Assembly: GCA_021817025.1 (NCBI GenBank)
Contig: JAKAWF010000139.1
Coordinates: 1 to 8,219 of the forward strand
Source of the DNA: a bacterium
Lineage (GTDB): Bacteria > Chloroflexota > Dormibacteria > UBA8260 > Bog-877
Reading direction: 5' to 3'
DNA: 8,219 bases
In this document: positions 1,704 through 8,219 of the stretch, in pieces
How positions within the stretch are numbered: the first letter of the stretch is position 1
Layout of the letters: every line of letters begins with the position of its first letter
Notes under the pieces: model-generated
The model's input: only the letters and a program-made list of their open reading frames with translations
Told to the model about the DNA's origin: nothing
Database searches by the model: none
Made by a program: the position numbers and the translations under genes

Positions 1704-2954
1704 TCAACTCCGAAAGCGCGCGGGTGAGAAGGCGGCAGTGAAGGCGGGCAGTGGGCGTCCCTCCAGCATATCCGCGACCAGCTCGCCGGTGGCGGGGGCC
1801 AAGGTAACGCCCAGCATGGCGTGGCCGGTGGCCGCTATCACATTGGGCACAGCTGGGAGCGGCCCGATCACCGGCAAGCCATCAGGCACCATGGGGCGCA
1901 AGCCAGCCCAAGGTGGCGATGGCTCGGCCAAGGCCAGCTTGGGCAGGTAGCGCACCGACGTGCGTAGCATCGCGGCGACCCGCCCCGGGTTGACTCTGGC
2001 CGTGTCGGTGCCCAGCTCCATGGTGCCTAGTACCCGGACCCCGTCCCGGTACGGTGAGATCGCCACTCTGGCCTCGCTGCGATAGATGGCGTGGCCGAGG
2101 GGCGGACTGCTGCTCGCGAAGGTGACGCTGTACCCCTTGCCCCCCTGCAGGGGGATCCTGGAACCCAGTCCGTGGCTGAGGCTGGCACTGTCAACTCCCG
2201 CCGCCAGCACGAACTCGTCGGCGTGAAGCCTGGCGCCCTCTGCTACGACAGCCGCCACGGCTCGGCCCCCCTCCGTCTGGAACTCAACCACCCTAGCCCC
2301 GACGAGGATCCGGACCCCGGCCTGCTCCAACCAGCGGCGCAGGCCAGACGTGAGAGCCTCGGGGCGGACATGAAAGTCCCCGGGAGCGAGTACTCCAGCA
2401 GCCGGCAGCCCGCCGGTGGCCGGCTCCGCCTGGCTCAACTGACTCCGCTCCAGGAAGGTTGCCGCAGGGAGTCCTGGAATCCCGCCCAACAGGGCCATCT
2501 CGTCCTCGGCCGCCTGACGGCTGAGAAAGAGCAGGAGCAGTCCGTGATGATGGGCCTCGAAGGCAACTCCCGCCTGCTCGAGGTGGCGGAACTGCTGAGC
2601 GGCTGACGAGGCGAAAGCGGCGACCGCGCTCAAGCCCAGATCGTGGTCACGTCGGTTGCAGTGGCGGGCGAAAGCGACCATCCAAGCCCAGGAGGCCGGG
2701 TCCAATCTGGGGCGGACCAGGAGGGGGCTATTCGGATTCAGCATCCACCCCAGCGCCTTGGCCAGCACCCCCGGCCCTGGTACCGGCGCGGAGAGCGATG
2801 GGCAGACCCATCCTCCGTTGCCTGAGGAAGCGGCTCCGCCAGGCTCTCGCGCCTCCGCCAAAGTGACTTCGAATCCCCGGCGGTGAAGCGAGTAGGCACA
2901 GCAGAGTCCGATGACTCCTCCACCGATCACGAGCACCGACCCGGCGGACCTCAC
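1704..2954 (-). CDS. dadA: DadA-type FAD-dependent D-amino-acid dehydrogenase (DAO superfamily)
   Basis: Expected to oxidise a D-amino or imino acid to the corresponding 2-oxo or imino product, with electrons passed to the respiratory chain. From the chosen start it has 416 residues (E. coli DadA has about 432). An N-terminal Rossmann dinucleotide motif, VLVIGGGVIG (Gly11, Gly13, Gly16), is followed by the DadA-like SSGNGGWVCPS segment and a PGPGVLAKALGWML stretch. The C-terminal half has GGKGYSVTF, WAGLRPMVPDGLPVIG, ATGHAMLGVTLAPATGELVADML and a final FSPARF, all aligning by eye with E. coli DadA. Start choice: the frame stays open far upstream, but homology begins at SVLVIGGG. GTG at 2954 is preferred, with a purine-rich GGGGAAAG upstream; GTG at 2969 is possible. 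First gene of the minus-strand unit with pruB and pruA, so a D-proline or D-hydroxyproline-like substrate is plausible, but this is inference. Confidence 0.88.
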   Translation of the reverse strand: MRSAGSVLVIGGGVIGLCCAYSLHRRGFEVTLAEAREPGGAASSGNGGWVCPSLSAPVPGPGVLAKALGWMLNPNSPLLVRPRLDPASWAWMVAFARHCNRRDHDLGLSAVAAFASSAAQQFRHLEQAGVAFEAHHHGLLLLFLSRQAAEDEMALLGGIPGLPAATFLERSQLSQAEPATGGLPAAGVLAPGDFHVRPEALTSGLRRWLEQAGVRILVGARVVEFQTEGGRAVAAVVAEGARLHADEFVLAAGVDSASLSHGLGSRIPLQGGKGYSVTFASSSPPLGHAIYRSEARVAISPYRDGVRVLGTMELGTDTARVNPGRVAAMLRTSVRYLPKLALAEPSPPWAGLRPMVPDGLPVIGPLPAVPNVIAATGHAMLGVTLAPATGELVADMLEGRPLPAFTAAFSPARFRS

Positions 2955-3061
2955 TCCCGCTTTCCCCACCCCTACCACCCCTTTGAGACCGAACTTCCCA
3001 ATTCCGCGGGTCTTCGGACCGGACGTCGCCGATCCCCCGCAGGAGGCGCCAGCAACCATCC

Positions 3062-3074
3062 CCGGGTGACCCGG
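3062..3074. repeat. 13-bp palindrome abutting the -35 box, candidate operator
   Basis: CCGGGTGACCCGG is a perfect inverted repeat (6-bp arms, one central base) that ends exactly where the TTGACA -35 element begins. Its core GGTGACC recurs at 3122-3128, just downstream of the predicted transcription start, so the promoter is bracketed by two copies whose centres are 57 bp apart. GGT/ACC half-sites are common in operators of FCD-type GntR proteins (known for the family). The core also occurs in coding DNA near 3745, so chance cannot be excluded. Confidence 0.4.
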
Positions 3075-3104
3075 TTGACACGGGACACCCGACGGTTCTA
3101 TAGA
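3075..3104 (+). promoter_or_regulatory. Sigma70-type promoter of the SoxB-like oxidoreductase gene
   Basis: TTGACA (3075-3080, perfect -35 consensus) and TATAGA (3099-3104, one mismatch from the -10 consensus) are separated by 18 nt. Transcription would start near 3111, giving a leader of about 170 nt before the ATG at 3282. The -10 lies inside a perfect 10-bp palindrome, TTCTATAGAA (3096-3105). Spacing and flanking bases match the transporter promoter at 5254-5283. Confidence 0.7.
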
Positions 3105-3119
3105 AAGTATCACTACGGT
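3095..3119 (+). promoter_or_regulatory. Shared bipartite element GTTCTATA-N11-TACGGT, copy 1
   Basis: GTTCTATA (3095-3102) and TACGGT (3114-3119) are separated by 11 nt, covering the -10 box and the predicted transcription start. The same two blocks with identical spacing occur at 5274-5298 before the transporter operon. The TACGGT block lies beyond the core promoter, so RNA polymerase preference alone does not explain it; a repressor site is the simplest reading. In this copy CGGT is followed after 6 nt by ACCG, a small inverted repeat. Confidence 0.6.
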
Positions 3120-3175
3120 ATGGTGACCGCCCAACCGGAGCGGAGGTGGCGAATTTCCCTGGATGGAGGTAGACG

Positions 3176-3265
3176 GTGGCCAGAACTGAAATCGGAACTT
3201 CCGCACCGGTGGCGAGCCCCTCTCTCCTCCGCGCGGGGCAGCCGGGTCGAGGGGCGGACAGTTGA
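3176..3265 (+). CDS. Possible 29-residue upstream ORF (leader peptide)
   Basis: A GTG at 3176 has GGAGGT 5 nt upstream, one of the strongest Shine-Dalgarno matches in the window. The frame runs 29 codons to TGA at 3263-3265, ending 16 nt before the ATG of the SoxB-like gene, which itself lacks an obvious ribosome site. The peptide starts MARTEIGTSA and has no recognisable domain or regulatory amino-acid run. It is out of frame with the downstream gene. It might couple translation to the oxidoreductase, or be a chance ORF in a GC-rich leader. Confidence 0.25.
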   Translation: MARTEIGTSAPVASPSLLRAGQPGRGADS

Positions 3266-3281
3266 CCCGCCCAATCCCGTG

Positions 3282-4436
3282 ATGGGAGGGTCGCTGCCAG
3301 CCGGTGCTGAGATCACCATCATTGGTGGGGGCGCGATGGGCTGCAGTCTCGCCTTCCACCTCGCAGCCCGGGGCCGAAAACCCCTGGTGCTGGAGCGGGG
3401 ACGTCTCGGTGGCGGGTCCACCGGCAGGTGTGCCGGCGGCGTTCGCCAGCAGTTCTCCACCGCGGTAAACATTCGTCTGGGCCAGCGCGCGATTCAACTT
3501 CTGGAACAGTTCCAGGCGACCACTGGGACGGATCCGCAGTATCAGCCCATCGGCTACCTGCTCTTGGCCACCTCAGGGCCTCAGGCCGAGGCACTGGCCC
3601 GCGACGTCTCCCTGCAGCGCCTCCTCAAGGTGCCCGTGGAGGTTCTGGGCTCCTCCGAGGTCGCACGGCTCGTCCCTGGGTTGCGGACTGACGACGTCCT
3701 CACAGCCAGCCTTTGTCCCAGCGATGGGCTGGCCGGCCCCAGCGAGGTGACCAACGGCTACGCCGCCGCCGCCGTCCGGCTGGGAGCTCAGGTCGAGGAG
3801 GGGGTCGAGGTGGTGGGGATCGATCTCCAAGGAGAGAAAGTGGTCGGAGTTCGCACCGACTGCGGTTCAGTCTCGACCCCGGAGATCGTGGTTTGCACCG
3901 GCCCCCAGTCCCGCCGCCTCGGCGAGATGGCCGCCATCGCGATCCAGGTGGACCCCCTGAAGCGGCACGTGCTGCTAACCGAGCCGTTTCCTGGGCAACC
4001 AAGCCAGAGTCCGATGACCATTGACCTGGCCACCGGCTTCTACTTTCACCCGGAGGGTGATGGTCTGCTGATGGGGATGGGCGATCCCTCGCAGCCCTTC
4101 GGTGATGATCTAAGCGTTGACTGGGGCTTCCTGCCCAGTGTGGTCGCCGAAGGGAGCCGAAGGCTGCCGGCCCTGGAAGGAGCCGCGCTTCGGACGGCGT
4201 GGGCAGGCCTCTACGAGATGACCCCCGACCGCCAACCGCTGGTGGGCAGCGTGCCCGCGCGTCCGGGCCTCTGGCTCGCCTGTGGGTTCTCGGGCCATGG
4301 CTTCATGATGGCGCCGCCGGTGGGGGAGAGCCTGGCAGCCGTGATGTGTGGTTCGCTTCCCCGTGTGGAGCTGGACCCTTTCGCCCCACTTCGCTTTACC
4401 GGCGGCACGCTGGCCCCCGAGTCGGTGTTCATATGA
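3282..4436 (+). CDS. FAD-dependent oxidoreductase, DAO superfamily, SoxB / sarcosine-oxidase-beta-like
   Basis: Likely oxidises a secondary or tertiary amine or imino acid (sarcosine-, dimethylglycine-, proline- or N-methylproline-like). The 384-residue protein opens with the FAD Rossmann motif ITIIGGGAMG (11-20), then the family block GGVRQQFST and a central NGYAAAAVRLGAQVEEGVEV segment. The C-terminal part has FYFHPEGDGLLMGMGDP, GLYEMTPDRQPLVG (309-322) and GFSGHGFMMAP (335-345). Gly309 occupies the place of the covalent-flavin Cys of monomeric sarcosine oxidase, so FAD is probably non-covalent. ATG 3282 is chosen because homology starts within ten residues; the frame is open upstream, but that part looks non-coding, and Shine-Dalgarno support is poor. 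It has its own strong promoter, related to that of the transporter. No partner subunit (SoxA, SoxD, SoxG or a ferredoxin-like protein) lies in the window, so it may act alone. Confidence 0.86.
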   Translation: MGGSLPAGAEITIIGGGAMGCSLAFHLAARGRKPLVLERGRLGGGSTGRCAGGVRQQFSTAVNIRLGQRAIQLLEQFQATTGTDPQYQPIGYLLLATSGPQAEALARDVSLQRLLKVPVEVLGSSEVARLVPGLRTDDVLTASLCPSDGLAGPSEVTNGYAAAAVRLGAQVEEGVEVVGIDLQGEKVVGVRTDCGSVSTPEIVVCTGPQSRRLGEMAAIAIQVDPLKRHVLLTEPFPGQPSQSPMTIDLATGFYFHPEGDGLLMGMGDPSQPFGDDLSVDWGFLPSVVAEGSRRLPALEGAALRTAWAGLYEMTPDRQPLVGSVPARPGLWLACGFSGHGFMMAPPVGESLAAVMCGSLPRVELDPFAPLRFTGGTLAPESVFI

Positions 4437-4527
4437 CTAGCGCGTCGATCTCCAGTTCGCGCTCGGCAACGGCCACTGCCGCCGACAGGCTGGTGAGCTG
4501 CTCGGATCGACGGTCAACCATCCCCAT
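4429..4527 (-). CDS. Possible 32-residue small ORF overlapping the regulator's 3' end
   Basis: In the frame +1 to the GntR-family gene, an ATG at 4527 (or 4521) opens a frame through the regulator's stop to TGA at 4429-4431, overlapping the convergent oxidoreductase stop by 8 bp. It encodes MGMVDRRSEQL followed by a Leu/Ala/Glu-rich stretch that looks helical. By my count 24 of 32 third positions are G or C, as in real genes here. It could be a translationally coupled micro-protein, the natural C-terminus of the regulator displaced by a frameshift, or chance. No terminator is visible in this convergent junction. Confidence 0.25.
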   Translation of the reverse strand: MGMVDRRSEQLTSLSAAVAVAERELEIDALVI

Positions 4528-5212
4528 CACGGCCCGCCCAGAGGCCGCGAGTGTGCTGCAGATGCCGGCGCATCTGGGCCTCCACCAGAGCCACATTCCA
4601 GCTTTCCAGAGCGTCGAGCAGGTCGCCGTGTTCGGCCGCGGTGTGGACCAAATCTCCGCCTGCCGCCAGGCTCGCGATCCCGTGCAGCCGAGCCTCGTCG
4701 CGGAGCCTCGCTACCATGTCGACCAGCCGTCGGTTGCCGAGTCCGGCGAGTACTTCCAGATGGAAGGTGCGGTCAGTCCAGAGGAACGCGATGAGCTGGC
4801 GGTGCTGCGCCTGGGTCACGAGCTCGCCGGCCAGGCGTCGAAGCAGCGGAGTGTCCAAGGTGGCCCGCTCGCGGGCCACCCGGACCACGGCCGGTAGCTC
4901 AACCAGCAGGCGGAGCTCGTACAGTTCGTCGAGATCATGCTCGCTCAGCACCGGTACCCTGAAGCCGCGGTTGCGAACAACCTCGATCAGGCCTTCGCCG
5001 GCGAGGTCGAACAAGGCCTCGCGAATCGGGGTAGCTGAGACTCCCAGCTGAGTGGCGAAATAGGACACTGGGTGAAGCTCCCCGGCCCCAATCTGGCCGG
5101 CAACGATGCTGCCCCGAATGGCGCCTCTAGCCCGGTCCCTGAGGCTAGCCTTATCGAGCGCAGGAAGTCCATTGTCCGCAGCGGTGGCCCCGTCGGGCGC
5201 CACGGCCCCCAC
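4514..5212 (-). CDS. GntR-family transcriptional regulator, FadR/FCD subfamily
   Basis: Ligand-responsive DNA-binding protein, probably the local repressor. From GTG 5212 it has 232 residues. An N-terminal winged helix-turn-helix (about 20-88) contains LGVSATPIREALFDLAGEGLIEV and the wing RNRGFRV. An all-helical FCD ligand domain (about 95-223) follows. All four expected metal ligands are visible: Asp147 and His151 in WTDRTFH, His195 in AAEHGDLLDAL and His217 in MRRHLQH. The domain can therefore probably bind a metal and, through it, a carboxylate effector, which suits amino-acid sensing. GTG 5212 is preferred because AGGAGG (5221-5226) lies 8 nt upstream; ATG 5269 lacks a ribosome site and would place coding sequence inside the transporter promoter. 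The gene lies between two units whose promoters share one motif, making it the leading candidate for their regulator. Confidence 0.9.
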   Translation of the reverse strand: MGAVAPDGATAADNGLPALDKASLRDRARGAIRGSIVAGQIGAGELHPVSYFATQLGVSATPIREALFDLAGEGLIEVVRNRGFRVPVLSEHDLDELYELRLLVELPAVVRVARERATLDTPLLRRLAGELVTQAQHRQLIAFLWTDRTFHLEVLAGLGNRRLVDMVARLRDEARLHGIASLAAGGDLVHTAAEHGDLLDALESWNVALVEAQMRRHLQHTRGLWAGRDGDG

Positions 5213-5220
5213 CCCTGGGA

Positions 5221-5226
5221 CCTCCT
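5221..5226 (-). promoter_or_regulatory. Ribosome binding site fixing the GTG start of the GntR-family gene
   Basis: On the minus strand a perfect AGGAGG sits 8 nt before GTG 5212. It argues against the in-frame ATG at 5269, which has no Shine-Dalgarno sequence and would add 19 residues unlike the family N-terminus. Confidence 0.65.
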
Positions 5227-5253
5227 GGCGAGCGGCGAGCTTACGCCTGCCTA

Positions 5254-5283
5254 TTGACTCCGACCCCATTCCCGTTCTATATA
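5254..5283 (+). promoter_or_regulatory. Sigma70-type promoter of the ABC transporter operon
   Basis: TTGACT (5254-5259) and TATATA (5278-5283) are separated by 18 nt, the same spacing as in the SoxB-like gene promoter. The start point would be near 5290, giving a leader of about 60 nt. The 138-bp gap between the regulator and the binding protein must also hold the regulator's own leftward promoter; the symmetrical TATATA could serve both strands, but I see no good leftward -35. Confidence 0.65.
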
Positions 5284-5298
5284 ACACAGAGTTACGGT
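5274..5298 (+). promoter_or_regulatory. Shared bipartite element GTTCTATA-N11-TACGGT, copy 2
   Basis: GTTCTATA (5274-5281) and TACGGT (5293-5298) match copy 1 exactly in bases and spacing, over the -10 box and predicted start of the transporter promoter. A TAAC-N5-GTTA inverted repeat (5282-5294) lies across the start point in this copy only. The location suits a repressor that blocks RNA polymerase. Confidence 0.6.
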
Positions 5299-5326
5299 GG
5301 AGCACGGAGCGAGTGGACCTCCACCG
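5295..5326 (+). repeat. 8-bp inverted repeat in the transporter leader
   Basis: CGGTGGAG (5295-5302) and CTCCACCG (5319-5326) are perfect arms with a 16-nt loop, placed at the 5' end of the predicted transcript. The left arm begins inside the TACGGT block. It could be a 5' stabilising RNA stem or part of a DNA operator. It ends about 11 nt before the ribosome binding site, so it need not hide it. Confidence 0.45.
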
Positions 5327-5350
5327 ACGAAGTACGGGAGGGTCGAACCC

Positions 5351-6529
5351 ATGACCACGAACTTGGGGCACGGACTGCGATGGGCGGCGTTGGCCGCCAC
5401 CATGGGAGGGCTGGCACTGGTGGTGGCGGCCTGTGGCTCCACCGCCAACACAACCGCGCCTAAGGCGCAGTTGGTGATTGGCTTCGCCAACCCGATCACT
5501 GGCGCCGAGGCGACCTACGGGGTCAGCGACCTCAACGCGGTCAACATGGCAGCGGCTCAGCTCAACGCCAAGGGCGGTGTCGGCGGCCACAAGATCAAGA
5601 TCATCTCCTGCGACACCAAGGCCGATCCCGCCACCGGAATCGCTTGCGCGCACCTGTTCGTCTCTGACAACGTCAACGCCGTGATCGGTTTCTTCAACTC
5701 GGACATCTCAATCCCTGCCTCCGGAATCCTGAACGCCGCTGGCATTCCGATGGTCTCGGGCGCTTCCACCAACCCCCAGCTCACGCTCCAGGGATTCAAG
5801 AACGTCTTCCGCATCTGCGGTACGGACAACTTTCAGGGTCAGGTCGAGGCCGACTTCCTGTACAACGTCCTACACATCAAGACCGCGGTGGCCATCAATG
5901 ACGAGGAGACCTACGGGCAGGGCGTATCTCAATACTTTGTGTCCAACTTCCAGAAGCTCGGCGGGAAGATCCTGTCCCAGCAAGGGGTCCAGGCGACCAC
6001 CACCGACTTCAGCTCGCTCCTGACCCAGATCAAGAGCCTCAACCCGGGCGCGATTCAGTTCGGAGGGTTCAACCCCGCCGCCGGCCTGCTGGCGAAGCAA
6101 GCCAAGGGCCTGGGTATCAATGTTCCCTTTATCTCAGACGACGGGACCATCGGCCCGCTCTTCTACCAAACGGGCGGCGCGGCCACCGTGGGTGCCTACC
6201 TGTCCAGTGAGCCCGCTCCCCAGGATCTGGCCACGGCCAAGGGTTTCGTCAGCCAGTACGTGAGCAAGTTCGGCAACCAGCCGACTGAGTTCGCCGGCTA
6301 CAACTTCGACTGTGTGTACGTCATCGCGCAGGCGGTCCTGGCGTCGAACTCGATCACTCCGGCGGCCATAATCAAGGGCTTGGCCGGGATTCACACCTAC
6401 CATGGCGTCACCGGCGTGGTCAACTTCGACAGCGTCGGCAACAACGTCACTCCTCAATACCTCATCTACAAGGTTCAGCCCGGGGGCGGGAACACCGTCG
6501 ACTGGAACCCCAACACCAAGGGCGCGTGA
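5351..6529 (+). CDS. ABC transporter substrate-binding lipoprotein, branched-chain amino acid type (Peripla_BP_6)
   Basis: Membrane-anchored extracytoplasmic receptor that captures the substrate and delivers it to LivH/LivM. It has 392 residues. The signal peptide (hydrophobic core about 12-27) ends in the lipobox VVAAC with lipidated Cys28. The binding-protein fold starts at LVIGFANPITG (41-51). Blocks matching E. coli LIV-binding protein by eye are VSGASTNPQLT (135-145, ligand-carboxylate loop), ETYGQGVSQYF (186-196) and FGGFNPAAGLLAKQA (238-252). Ser117, Ala138 and Thr140 match known ligand contacts, but the ammonium-binding Glu of LIV-binding protein (Glu226 from memory) is Ala243 here. 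Cys87 and Cys99 could form a disulfide at a different place from the family's usual one. The ATG at 5351 has GGGAGGG 8 nt upstream. First gene of the transporter operon, 35 bp before livH; the shared promoter motif suggests its ligand relates to the SoxB-like enzyme. Confidence 0.93.
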   Translation: MTTNLGHGLRWAALAATMGGLALVVAACGSTANTTAPKAQLVIGFANPITGAEATYGVSDLNAVNMAAAQLNAKGGVGGHKIKIISCDTKADPATGIACAHLFVSDNVNAVIGFFNSDISIPASGILNAAGIPMVSGASTNPQLTLQGFKNVFRICGTDNFQGQVEADFLYNVLHIKTAVAINDEETYGQGVSQYFVSNFQKLGGKILSQQGVQATTTDFSSLLTQIKSLNPGAIQFGGFNPAAGLLAKQAKGLGINVPFISDDGTIGPLFYQTGGAATVGAYLSSEPAPQDLATAKGFVSQYVSKFGNQPTEFAGYNFDCVYVIAQAVLASNSITPAAIIKGLAGIHTYHGVTGVVNFDSVGNNVTPQYLIYKVQPGGGNTVDWNPNTKGA

Positions 6530-6564: not shown

Positions 6565-7473
6565 ATGAGTCTGCAAGAGCTGCTCCAGCAGATCGTGAAC
6601 GGTCTGGTGGTCGGCTCGGTATACGGGCTCGTCGCCCTCGGCTACACCATGGTCTACGGGATCGTGCGCTTGATCAACTTCGCCCAGGGTGCGCTGTTTG
6701 AGGCTGGTGCCTATGTGGGCGTGGTCATCTTCAGCTTGCTTGGGGCCTTCGCCACCCGCCAACCCCTGGTCGGTCTTGTGATCGCAGTGATCGGCTCGGC
6801 GTTGCTGACCGGGGGGCTGGCGTACTTGGTAGAGCGCGTCGCCTACCGGCCGCTCAGAAACGCTCCCCCGCTGGCTCCCTTGGTCAGCTCGCTGGCAACC
6901 TTCTTTCTGATCATAAGCGTCATCCAGGTGATCACAGGCGCCCAGCCCTTGAACTATCCGCAGGTGCTCTCCGTCTCCCCCTGGGTGCTCGGGCCGATTA
7001 CGCTGGCACCGACCTCGCTGCTGATTGCGGTGGTGGCCGTCCTGCTGATGGTGGGGATCCACTTCTACGTGCAGCGCACCAAAATGGGCAAGGCCATGCG
7101 AGCGATCGCGGTCAACCGCAATGCCGCCGCCCTGATGGGGATCAACACCACATGGGTGGTCACCTTCACGTTCATTCTCGGAGGTGCCCTGGCGGCCGTC
7201 GCCGGAGTCCTCTTCGGCGTCGAATACGGGACAGTCACCTACAACATGGGGGAGTTCTACGGCCTGGTGGCCTTCACCGCAGCGGTTCTGGGCGGGATCG
7301 GCAACGTCCCGGGGGCCCTGGTGGGAGGGCTCACGGTAGGCGTCCTGTCAAGCTTTGCGACCATATTCTTGCCCAACCAATGGCAGGAGGCGATAGTGTT
7401 CGCGATCCTCATCCTGGTTCTGGCCGTGCGCCCCCAGGGAATCCTCGGCGAACGGGTCGCGGAGAGAGCATGA
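6565..7473 (+). CDS. livH: Branched-chain amino acid ABC transporter permease LivH
   Basis: Integral-membrane half of the import channel, pairing with LivM. The 302 residues are close to the E. coli length (308). The N-terminal family signature NGLVVGSVYGLVALGYTMVYGIVRLINFAQG (12-42) is intact, followed by repeated hydrophobic segments around 45-60, 67-88, 105-124, 150-168, 196-218, 230-248, 250-268 and 276-288. The cytoplasmic loop MGKAMRAIAVNRNAAALMGI (174-193) should contact the ATPase subunits. The LGGIGNVPGALVGG motif (242-255) and the VRPQGILG ending are typical. The start is ATG 6565 after a G-rich stretch. Its stop overlaps the livM start, so translation is probably coupled. Confidence 0.95.
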   Translation: MSLQELLQQIVNGLVVGSVYGLVALGYTMVYGIVRLINFAQGALFEAGAYVGVVIFSLLGAFATRQPLVGLVIAVIGSALLTGGLAYLVERVAYRPLRNAPPLAPLVSSLATFFLIISVIQVITGAQPLNYPQVLSVSPWVLGPITLAPTSLLIAVVAVLLMVGIHFYVQRTKMGKAMRAIAVNRNAAALMGINTTWVVTFTFILGGALAAVAGVLFGVEYGTVTYNMGEFYGLVAFTAAVLGGIGNVPGALVGGLTVGVLSSFATIFLPNQWQEAIVFAILILVLAVRPQGILGERVAERA

Positions 7474-8219
7474 GCGTACTTGGCCGACTCCGGTTGGGGC
7501 GGCGTCCACGGCCGCTGGCGAACGCCCGTCACGGGATGCGGGTCGCAGTGGTGCTGGCGGCGGTCGTGTTCGCCAGCGCGCCCTACTGGCTGGGCGGGAG
7601 CTACTTCCCGGACATCTGGGTCGACATGGGGCTGTGGTCCATCATCGGCGTCGGGCTCAATGTGGTGATCGGTTTCGCGGGATTGCTCGATCTCGGCTAC
7701 ATGGCCTTCTACGCGATCGGCGGCTACGTCTTCGCCAACGCGGCCCTCTACCACGGCTTCAACCTCTGGGAGACGCTGCCGATCGGCGCGGTGGTGGCCT
7801 TGGTCTCCAGCGCGATCATCGGATTCCCGACTCTGCGGGTCCACGGCGACTATCTGGCGATCATGACCCTCGGCTTCGGCGGGATTGTCTACTTCGCGGC
7901 CGAGAACCTGAGTGCGCTGACTGGAGGCGTCAACGGCCTGTATGGCTGGAAGACGCCGAGCCTGTTGGGGCACCCCTTCATCACCCCTTTGGACTTCTAC
8001 CCGTTCGTGCTGGCGCTTCTGATCGTGGCGGCGCTGGTGACCATGCATCTGCGCACCTCTCGAATCGGACGCGCCTGGGCGTGCATCAAGGATGACGAGA
8101 TCGCCGCCGCCGCATCCGGGATCGCCATCGTCCGTTACAAGCTCTACGCCTACATGCTGGGATCGGTCTGGGCGGGCTTGGCAGGTGCCCTCTTCGCGGC
8201 CAAGGAAGCTTTGATCTCC
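7470..8219 (+). CDS. livM: Branched-chain amino acid ABC transporter permease LivM, first 250 residues, runs off right edge
   Basis: Second permease subunit. The ATG at 7470 overlaps the livH stop (ATGA), the usual sign of translational coupling. A basic N-terminus (RLRLGRRPRPLANARHGMR) precedes the first membrane segment (about 24-45). Family blocks then follow: GLNVVIGFAGLLDLGYMAFY (62-81), TLRVHGDYLAIMTLGFGGIV (121-140), TGGVNGL (151-157) and the ATPase-contact loop RIGRAWACIKDDEIAAAASG (198-217), followed by another membrane segment at the edge. No frameshift or in-frame stop is seen. The rest of livM and the ATPase genes livG and livF are expected to the right. Confidence 0.94.
   Translation, partial: MSVLGRLRLGRRPRPLANARHGMRVAVVLAAVVFASAPYWLGGSYFPDIWVDMGLWSIIGVGLNVVIGFAGLLDLGYMAFYAIGGYVFANAALYHGFNLWETLPIGAVVALVSSAIIGFPTLRVHGDYLAIMTLGFGGIVYFAAENLSALTGGVNGLYGWKTPSLLGHPFITPLDFYPFVLALLIVAALVTMHLRTSRIGRAWACIKDDEIAAAASGIAIVRYKLYAYMLGSVWAGLAGALFAAKEALIS

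Follow-up and report, generated by a model that had tools for sequence, protein, structure and literature searches.

In an 8,219-nucleotide stretch of bacterial DNA (hereafter the window; G+C content 66%, closest named relatives Candidatus Dormibacteria), two promoters, one in front of a gene for a SoxB-like oxidase (soxB) and one in front of the genes of a Liv-type importer (liv), have in common a TTGAC box and a palindrome, TTCTATAKAA, that lies over the -10 box and is centred at the same place in both. The second promoter adjoins the start of a divergent gene (gntR) that encodes a regulator of the GntR/FCD type. From the sequence and position of the palindrome, its conservation, its restriction to the two promoters in the genome of one relative and its co-occurrence with one type of GntR protein, we consider it probable that the palindrome is the operator of a GntR/FCD repressor that regulates its own gene as well as soxB and liv.

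A palindrome over the -10 box in the soxB and liv promoters

At soxB, the -35 box TTGACA (positions 3075-3080, plus strand) is followed by the candidate operator TTCTATAGAA (3096-3105, strandless), a perfect 10-bp palindrome (half-sites TTCTA and TAGAA, 5/5 pairs match) that covers the -10 box TATAGA at 3099-3104. At liv, the -35 box TTGACT (5254-5259, plus strand) lies inside the first gntR codons (ATG at 5269, minus strand), and the candidate operator GTTCTATATAAC (5274-5285, strandless) covers the -10 box TATATA at 5278-5283, directly upstream of gntR and 4 bases from its ATG; here 5/6 pairs match (GTTCTA and TATAAC). A simple promoter scan of the window reported no sigma-70 site, presumably missing both promoters by requiring T at the last -10 position.

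The original prediction was based on an ungapped alignment of 3075-3119 with 5254-5298, in which 27 of 45 bases are identical, and we recovered this alignment with every element in its place: TTGACA/TTGACT, 14 nt, GTTCTATA (3095-3102 and 5274-5281), 11 nt and TACGGT (3114-3119 and 5293-5298, plus strand). The raw identity was rejected as evidence because it lacks significance: in the window, at least 27 matches are reached by 428 direct pairs of non-overlapping 45-mers, and the best pair has 30. The compound pattern GTTCTATA-N11-TACGGT with up to 3 mismatches was found twice versus 0.14 expected (at least two in 2/200 shuffles) and TTGAC-N15-GTTCTATA twice versus 0.32 expected (at least two in 11/200 shuffles), a significance that is overstated as both patterns were picked after the two sites had been seen. 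When the promoters were aligned on their boxes, the chance of a run of at least six matches among the 71 leftover positions was ∼2% in a simulation, and TACGGT alone is therefore weak evidence.

Conservation in related genomes

A scan of genome contigs with a GntR alignment gave 23 loci. Two of these, L001 and L004 (both Dormibacteria), keep the order of the window, dadA (a DadA-like dehydrogenase gene divergent from soxB), soxB, gntR and liv, with identities of 84% for soxB, 91-92% for the binding protein of the importer and, for gntR, 76% (L001) or 77 and 84% over two pieces (L004). The gntR gene of this latter genome (G004) is split over two reading frames (∼6444-6546 of L004, reverse-complement), which is a frameshift or an assembly error; both operators are kept. 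L002 and L003 share gntR (60-61%) and liv with the window.

The three syntenic loci (window, L001 and L004) agree in 141 of the 327 alignment columns of the dadA-soxB spacer. The longest invariant run of this spacer, CTATAGAAAGTATCACT (17 bases, 3098-3114, plus strand, 3/3 loci), reaches past the -10 box and has a length that was attained in none of 3000 column shuffles; a second one, CGGTTGACACGG (12 bases, P 0.008), contains the -35 box. At the place of the soxB operator L001 carries TCCTATAGAA, one base off the 10-mer. In the gntR-liv stretch 5241-5350, which includes the first gntR codons, the longest run in the three syntenic loci is GTTCTATATAACACAGAGTT (20 bases), and over five loci (window and L001-L004) the longest runs are GTTCTATATA (10 bases) and the -35 box TTGACT (6 bases, invariant in 5/5). 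Thus, conservation in related genomes extends beyond the -35 and -10 hexamers; an outcome in which only the hexamers were conserved did not occur. Beyond the palindrome, the invariant soxB run goes on (AAAGTATCACT), and its minus strand, AGTGATACTTT, is possibly the dadA -10 box or an additional half-site; the right part of the 17-base run may include part of the divergent dadA promoter.

The distribution of the palindrome in single genomes is narrow. In G004, TTCTATAKAA was found in just two places, which are the soxB and liv promoters; base composition predicts 0.18 occurrences, and the reversed control gave none. The exact 10-mer occurs once in G001 and once in G002, both times at liv, and once in G006, beside gntR; in none of these four genomes was an exact 10-mer found outside the gntR locus. 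A search of G001-G004 for TTGAC-N16-19-TATA gave 31 sites. Six are soxB or liv promoters, and all six have TTC or TCC before TATA, which was found in 0/25 of the others. The block is therefore no general promoter feature of these genomes.

Co-occurrence of the site with one type of GntR protein

Within 320 nt upstream of gntR (counted from the first gntR codon matched by tblastn), TTCTATA or its complement was present in 7/7 loci whose GntR protein has the recognition helix VSATPIREALFDL (the window and L001-L006), loci that are not independent, as the window, L001 and L004 are close and L002 and L003 share liv. In 0/23 other homologues (32-54% identity; L007-L023, L032, L034-L037 and L040) was TTCTATA found upstream of gntR. 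The helix grouping was noticed after this result and made without a tree.

The site also stays with gntR where the neighbours differ. In L005 and L006, gntR (51-52%) was the only one of the window genes with a divergent neighbour to have a match next to the site; the other neighbours are genes for a family-5 binding protein and hydantoinase in L006 and for an amidohydrolase in L005. L006 has the same layout as the window (TTGCAC-N18-TATAGA). In L005 the site is not on a TATA -10 box and begins 12 nt after TTGACT-N17-TACGGT. Since it stays near gntR there but off any -10 box, the operator and the -10 box appear to be separable. The L005 arrangement (∼5164-5221, reverse-complement) places TACGGT at the position of a -10 box, unlike in the window, upstream of the palindrome-like TTCTATATTTCATAGAA.

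Several observations weigh against the proposed operator and regulon. Both sites are present in three loci only, the window included; in L002 the liv site is conserved, but TTCTATA is missing upstream of the SoxB-like gene. L032 (51%) and L040 (54%) are no more distant from the window protein than L005 and L006 and lack the site, and the helix grouping that separates them is the one noticed after the result. When we searched 110 genomes of the class, with the reversed sequence as control (counted by eye), the 10-mer was not enriched: 15/110 genomes had it, versus 15/110 for the control. Eight of the 110 have a GntR match at E <= 1e-55, and five of these eight carry the 10-mer (G001, G002, G004, G006 and G271), four of them beside gntR, while in G271 it sits on another contig. 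G003 and G005 have no exact 10-mer, with the near forms TTCTATATAG and TTCTATATTTCATAGAA, respectively, beside gntR, and no site was found upstream of gntR in G425. Of the 102 class genomes in which GntR has no match at 1e-55, 10 also carry the 10-mer. A looser search for GTTCTATAKAACA (up to 2 mismatches) equalled the control in 3/6 genomes and was slightly above it in three (4/3, 6/3 and 2/0); this 13-mer was rejected as having little or no specificity. All genome-wide counts come from the genomes of relatives, not from the window's own genome. In addition, one pair of the liv palindrome does not match, and the GT/AC pair that most FadR-type operators have is missing from both sites. The case for the 10-mer rests on its location, not on its class-wide count.

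In the ten genomes with the 10-mer and no GntR match, tblastn with the window proteins found no relatives within ∼1.5 kb of it, save a proline dehydrogenase match in L051. A pair of 10-mers 8.5 kb apart in G434 (L043 and L054) was considered as a second regulon and rejected, as none of eight window proteins had a tblastn match within ∼1.5 kb.

The regulator and known systems

The gntR gene (4514-5269, minus strand) encodes the proposed binder and autoregulator, a member of the FadR/FCD group of the GntR family: it matches PF00392 with 43.9 bits (cut-off 27; E-value 1.9e-11) and PF07729 with 62.1 bits (cut-off 24.3; 8.9e-17). Its FCD residues D166, H170, H214 and H236, which we take to be metal binders, are invariant in 18/18 sequences and align with the D/H/H/H set of TM0439 (3sxy). 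The nearest solved relatives by sequence, TM0439 (3sxy, 3fms), McbR (4p9f) and 7xp0, have the same GntR/FCD architecture, and the D/H/H/H positions align in 7xp0 as well; all are remote from the window protein (profile E-values 1.5e-21 to 6.8e-18) and are likened to it by protein alone. At positions 38, 28, 40 and 59 of the helix-turn-helix domain the window protein has Ala79, Ser69, Pro81 and Asn100, when mapped onto FadR via the conserved V-S-x-T-P-x-R-E motif. Ala79 is nearly invariant. Arg at position 38 was seen in just one of the four aligned solved relatives, 7xp0, and a residue other than Arg is therefore not rare there.

According to PMC4494728, Arg-45 (position 38) and Arg-35 (position 28) of FadR read G; in the correlations given there, Pro at position 40 avoids G/C, and a trend for Asn at position 59 is not significant. 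The residues of the window protein appear to fit a non-GT operator. The consensus of FadR-type operators given in that source is TKGT/ACMA, with GT and AC 2-3 nt apart, and by eye no GT/AC pair at this spacing is present in TTCTATAGAA or GTTCTATATAAC. Thus, the window resembles the FadR subfamily as outlined in PMC4494728 in having an N-terminal GntR winged helix-turn-helix, a C-terminal FCD domain, a short A/T-rich palindrome and a site between the divergent regulator and its targets, whereas its site, TTCTA and TAGAA, departs from the consensus. Exceptions to this consensus exist, e.g. the BioR operator TTATMKATAA (PMC4494728), and the window site resembles it in being A/T-rich, palindromic and 10 letters long.

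HypR of Streptomyces coelicolor is described in PMC6608401 as an FCD autorepressor whose site covers the -10 box of its own promoter. Like the window regulator, HypR is tied to a DAO-family dehydrogenase, and it also controls genes of the hydroxyproline/proline pathway (PMC6608401). Its 14-nt motif CTNTGC(A/C)ATGTCAC, as given there, is not at the window sites: the best matches have 4 mismatches in 3060-3140 (soxB) and 5 in 5240-5310 (liv). For the looser HypR one-hybrid motif TATNNTNNC(AC)(TC), the soxB region has one match with 1 mismatch, which does not lie in the palindrome, and the liv region needs 2 mismatches. One search of a library of papers found none joining 'Dormibact' and 'GntR'; among the matches listed for the string TTCTATAGAA there was no GntR operator paper by title, and among those listed in further searches there was nothing on a soxB-gntR-liv system.

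Proposed regulation and alternative explanations

The comparison with relatives (i.e. the conservation beyond the hexamers, the restriction in G004 and the persistence of the site beside gntR) supports the part of the original prediction in which soxB and the importer have one operator in common, and does not support TACGGT as a part of that operator. It likewise makes the GntR/FCD protein, originally named as the most likely controller, the likely binder. We propose a sigma-70-type promoter (TTGAC, 18-nt spacer, TATA) with a GntR/FCD operator built into its -10 box, TTCTATAGAA at soxB and GTTCTATATAAC at liv/gntR. A dimer of the regulator on the palindrome would cover the -10 box and block RNA polymerase; the location of the site over the -10 box points to repression by exclusion of the polymerase. 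soxB, the liv importer and gntR would be repressed, and plausibly also the divergent dadA. gntR should be autoregulated, as 4 bases separate its ATG from the liv site and its first codons contain the liv -35 box; many GntR proteins regulate their own genes, and FadR-type regulators are often found in divergons with the site in the spacer, according to PMC4494728 and PMC6608401. The FCD domain would bind a ligand that releases the repressor, probably a small amino or carboxylic acid imported or oxidised by these proteins, as suggested by the biology of FCD domains outlined in PMC4494728 and by the conserved D/H/H/H set.

dadA may be under the soxB-side operator too, since the site at 3096-3105 lies in the divergent dadA-soxB spacer and a single site in a divergon usually serves both sides (PMC4494728). 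The original prediction saw no separate copy before dadA because this copy lies in the spacer that dadA and soxB share, and its statement that the dadA unit may be controlled differently is doubtful.

Could the two promoters share nothing but a core promoter? Two vegetative promoters, with the rest a coincidence and a bidirectional -10 box that also serves gntR, are in our opinion an unlikely explanation. TTGAC and TATA do account for much of the identity, 27/45 is common among 45-mers of the window, TATATA is symmetric with the gntR start 4 bases from the liv site, and even the L006 site has a -35-like TTGCAC 18 nt before TATAGA. However, the conserved runs reach past the -10 box, the remaining 25 TTGAC-N16-19-TATA sites in four relatives have neither TTC nor TCC before the -10 box, and the L005 site is near gntR, downstream of a promoter-like pair, and off any -10 box. 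We also give little credence to a genuine operator that belongs to another regulator encoded elsewhere, with gntR merely a target. The window protein does have Ala at the place of FadR's G-reading Arg and the operator lacks GT/AC (cf. PMC4494728), but the core adjoins this type of GntR in 7/7 loci, also amid unrelated neighbours, and the operator of a distant regulator would be expected at other promoters, whereas the exact 10-mer is nowhere outside the locus in G001, G002, G004 and G006.

An operator that includes TACGGT, a shared block downstream of the start point as originally proposed, is very improbable. The copies in the window are identical and at a fixed spacing, and L001 and L004 retain CGGTGG at liv, but at the soxB promoter both syntenic relatives lack TACGGT and have TCCCAC (L001) or TCGCGA (L004) instead; at liv the block reads TGCGGT in L001 and L004 and is lost in L002 and L003. 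The unconserved soxB copy, and with it the shared block, is thus probably a coincidence by these alignments, and what the two promoters have in common is the palindrome, with its centre on the -10 box.

The autoregulated repressor acting through the palindrome would be an ordinary kind of local regulon, with operator letters that seem atypical for its repressor family. Tentatively, a group of Dormibacteria FCD proteins (Ala for Arg in the recognition helix, Asn at the wing) may read a non-GT TTCTATAKAA that for the most part is integrated in the -10 box, i.e. a compact promoter-operator placed before different targets (an importer, an FAD oxidase, perhaps dadA, a hydantoinase cluster). The proposed repressor system provides an uncultured lineage with a small regulon and a candidate operator that are concrete and testable. 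Through it, an orphan SoxB-like oxidase and an orphan Liv-type importer become linked, and the range of possible common substrates becomes narrower. In the regulator-operator pair, the G-reading Arg of FadR and the operator G are lost together.

Genes of the window

soxB (3282-4436, plus strand) encodes a SoxB/ThiO-like flavin adenine dinucleotide (FAD) amine oxidase of the DAO fold (Pfam DAO, 1.8e-72); domain searches covered 3120-4436, and the start was taken as ATG 3282. Its NCBIfam matches, ThiO (2.2e-36) and soxB (6.4e-34), are far under the cut-offs. dadA (1704-2969, minus strand) encodes a DadA-like FAD dehydrogenase (Pfam DAO, 3.6e-66 for 1704-2960), with its GTG start at ∼2969 picked by eye from an alignment with ATG in L001 and L004. 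Since the NCBIfam matches of both DAO proteins are below cut-off, among the matches listed, 'SoxB' and 'DadA' are loose labels. The importer begins with the gene for a lipoprotein substrate-binding protein of Liv type (5351-6529, plus strand; Pfam Peripla_BP_6, 3.7e-55), followed by two Liv-type permease genes, LivH-like and LivM-like (6565-8219, plus strand; Pfam BPD_transp_2), the latter cut by the window end.

After dadA come, on the minus strand, the genes for proline dehydrogenase (689-1618, Pfam) and an aldehyde dehydrogenase (1-633, cut; Pfam, best NCBIfam match glutamate-semialdehyde dehydrogenase). In L001 and L004 a different DAO-like gene is located downstream of dadA instead, and the proline genes are therefore no fixed part of the dadA unit. 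In two other genomes of the phylum (L034 and L035), a GntR/FCD gene of 41-45% identity has a DAO-like gene on one side and proline dehydrogenase on the other, and TTCTATA is absent. A scan of viral contigs for GntR found no relative.

A leaderless soxB start at ATG 3120, directly after TACGGT, was considered and rejected, as two relatives lack this ATG and both start at ATG 3282. Before soxB there is a leader open reading frame (3164-3265, plus strand) with a conserved TGGAGGT Shine-Dalgarno sequence and then an RTGGCC start at 3176. It has 29 codons in the window and L001; the L004 copy has 35, and its TGA overlaps the ATG of soxB. A conserved leader peptide was rejected: the start region is kept and the peptide sequence varies. 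As the peptide is not conserved and soxB itself is without a clear Shine-Dalgarno sequence, this suggests that the leader and soxB are translationally coupled.

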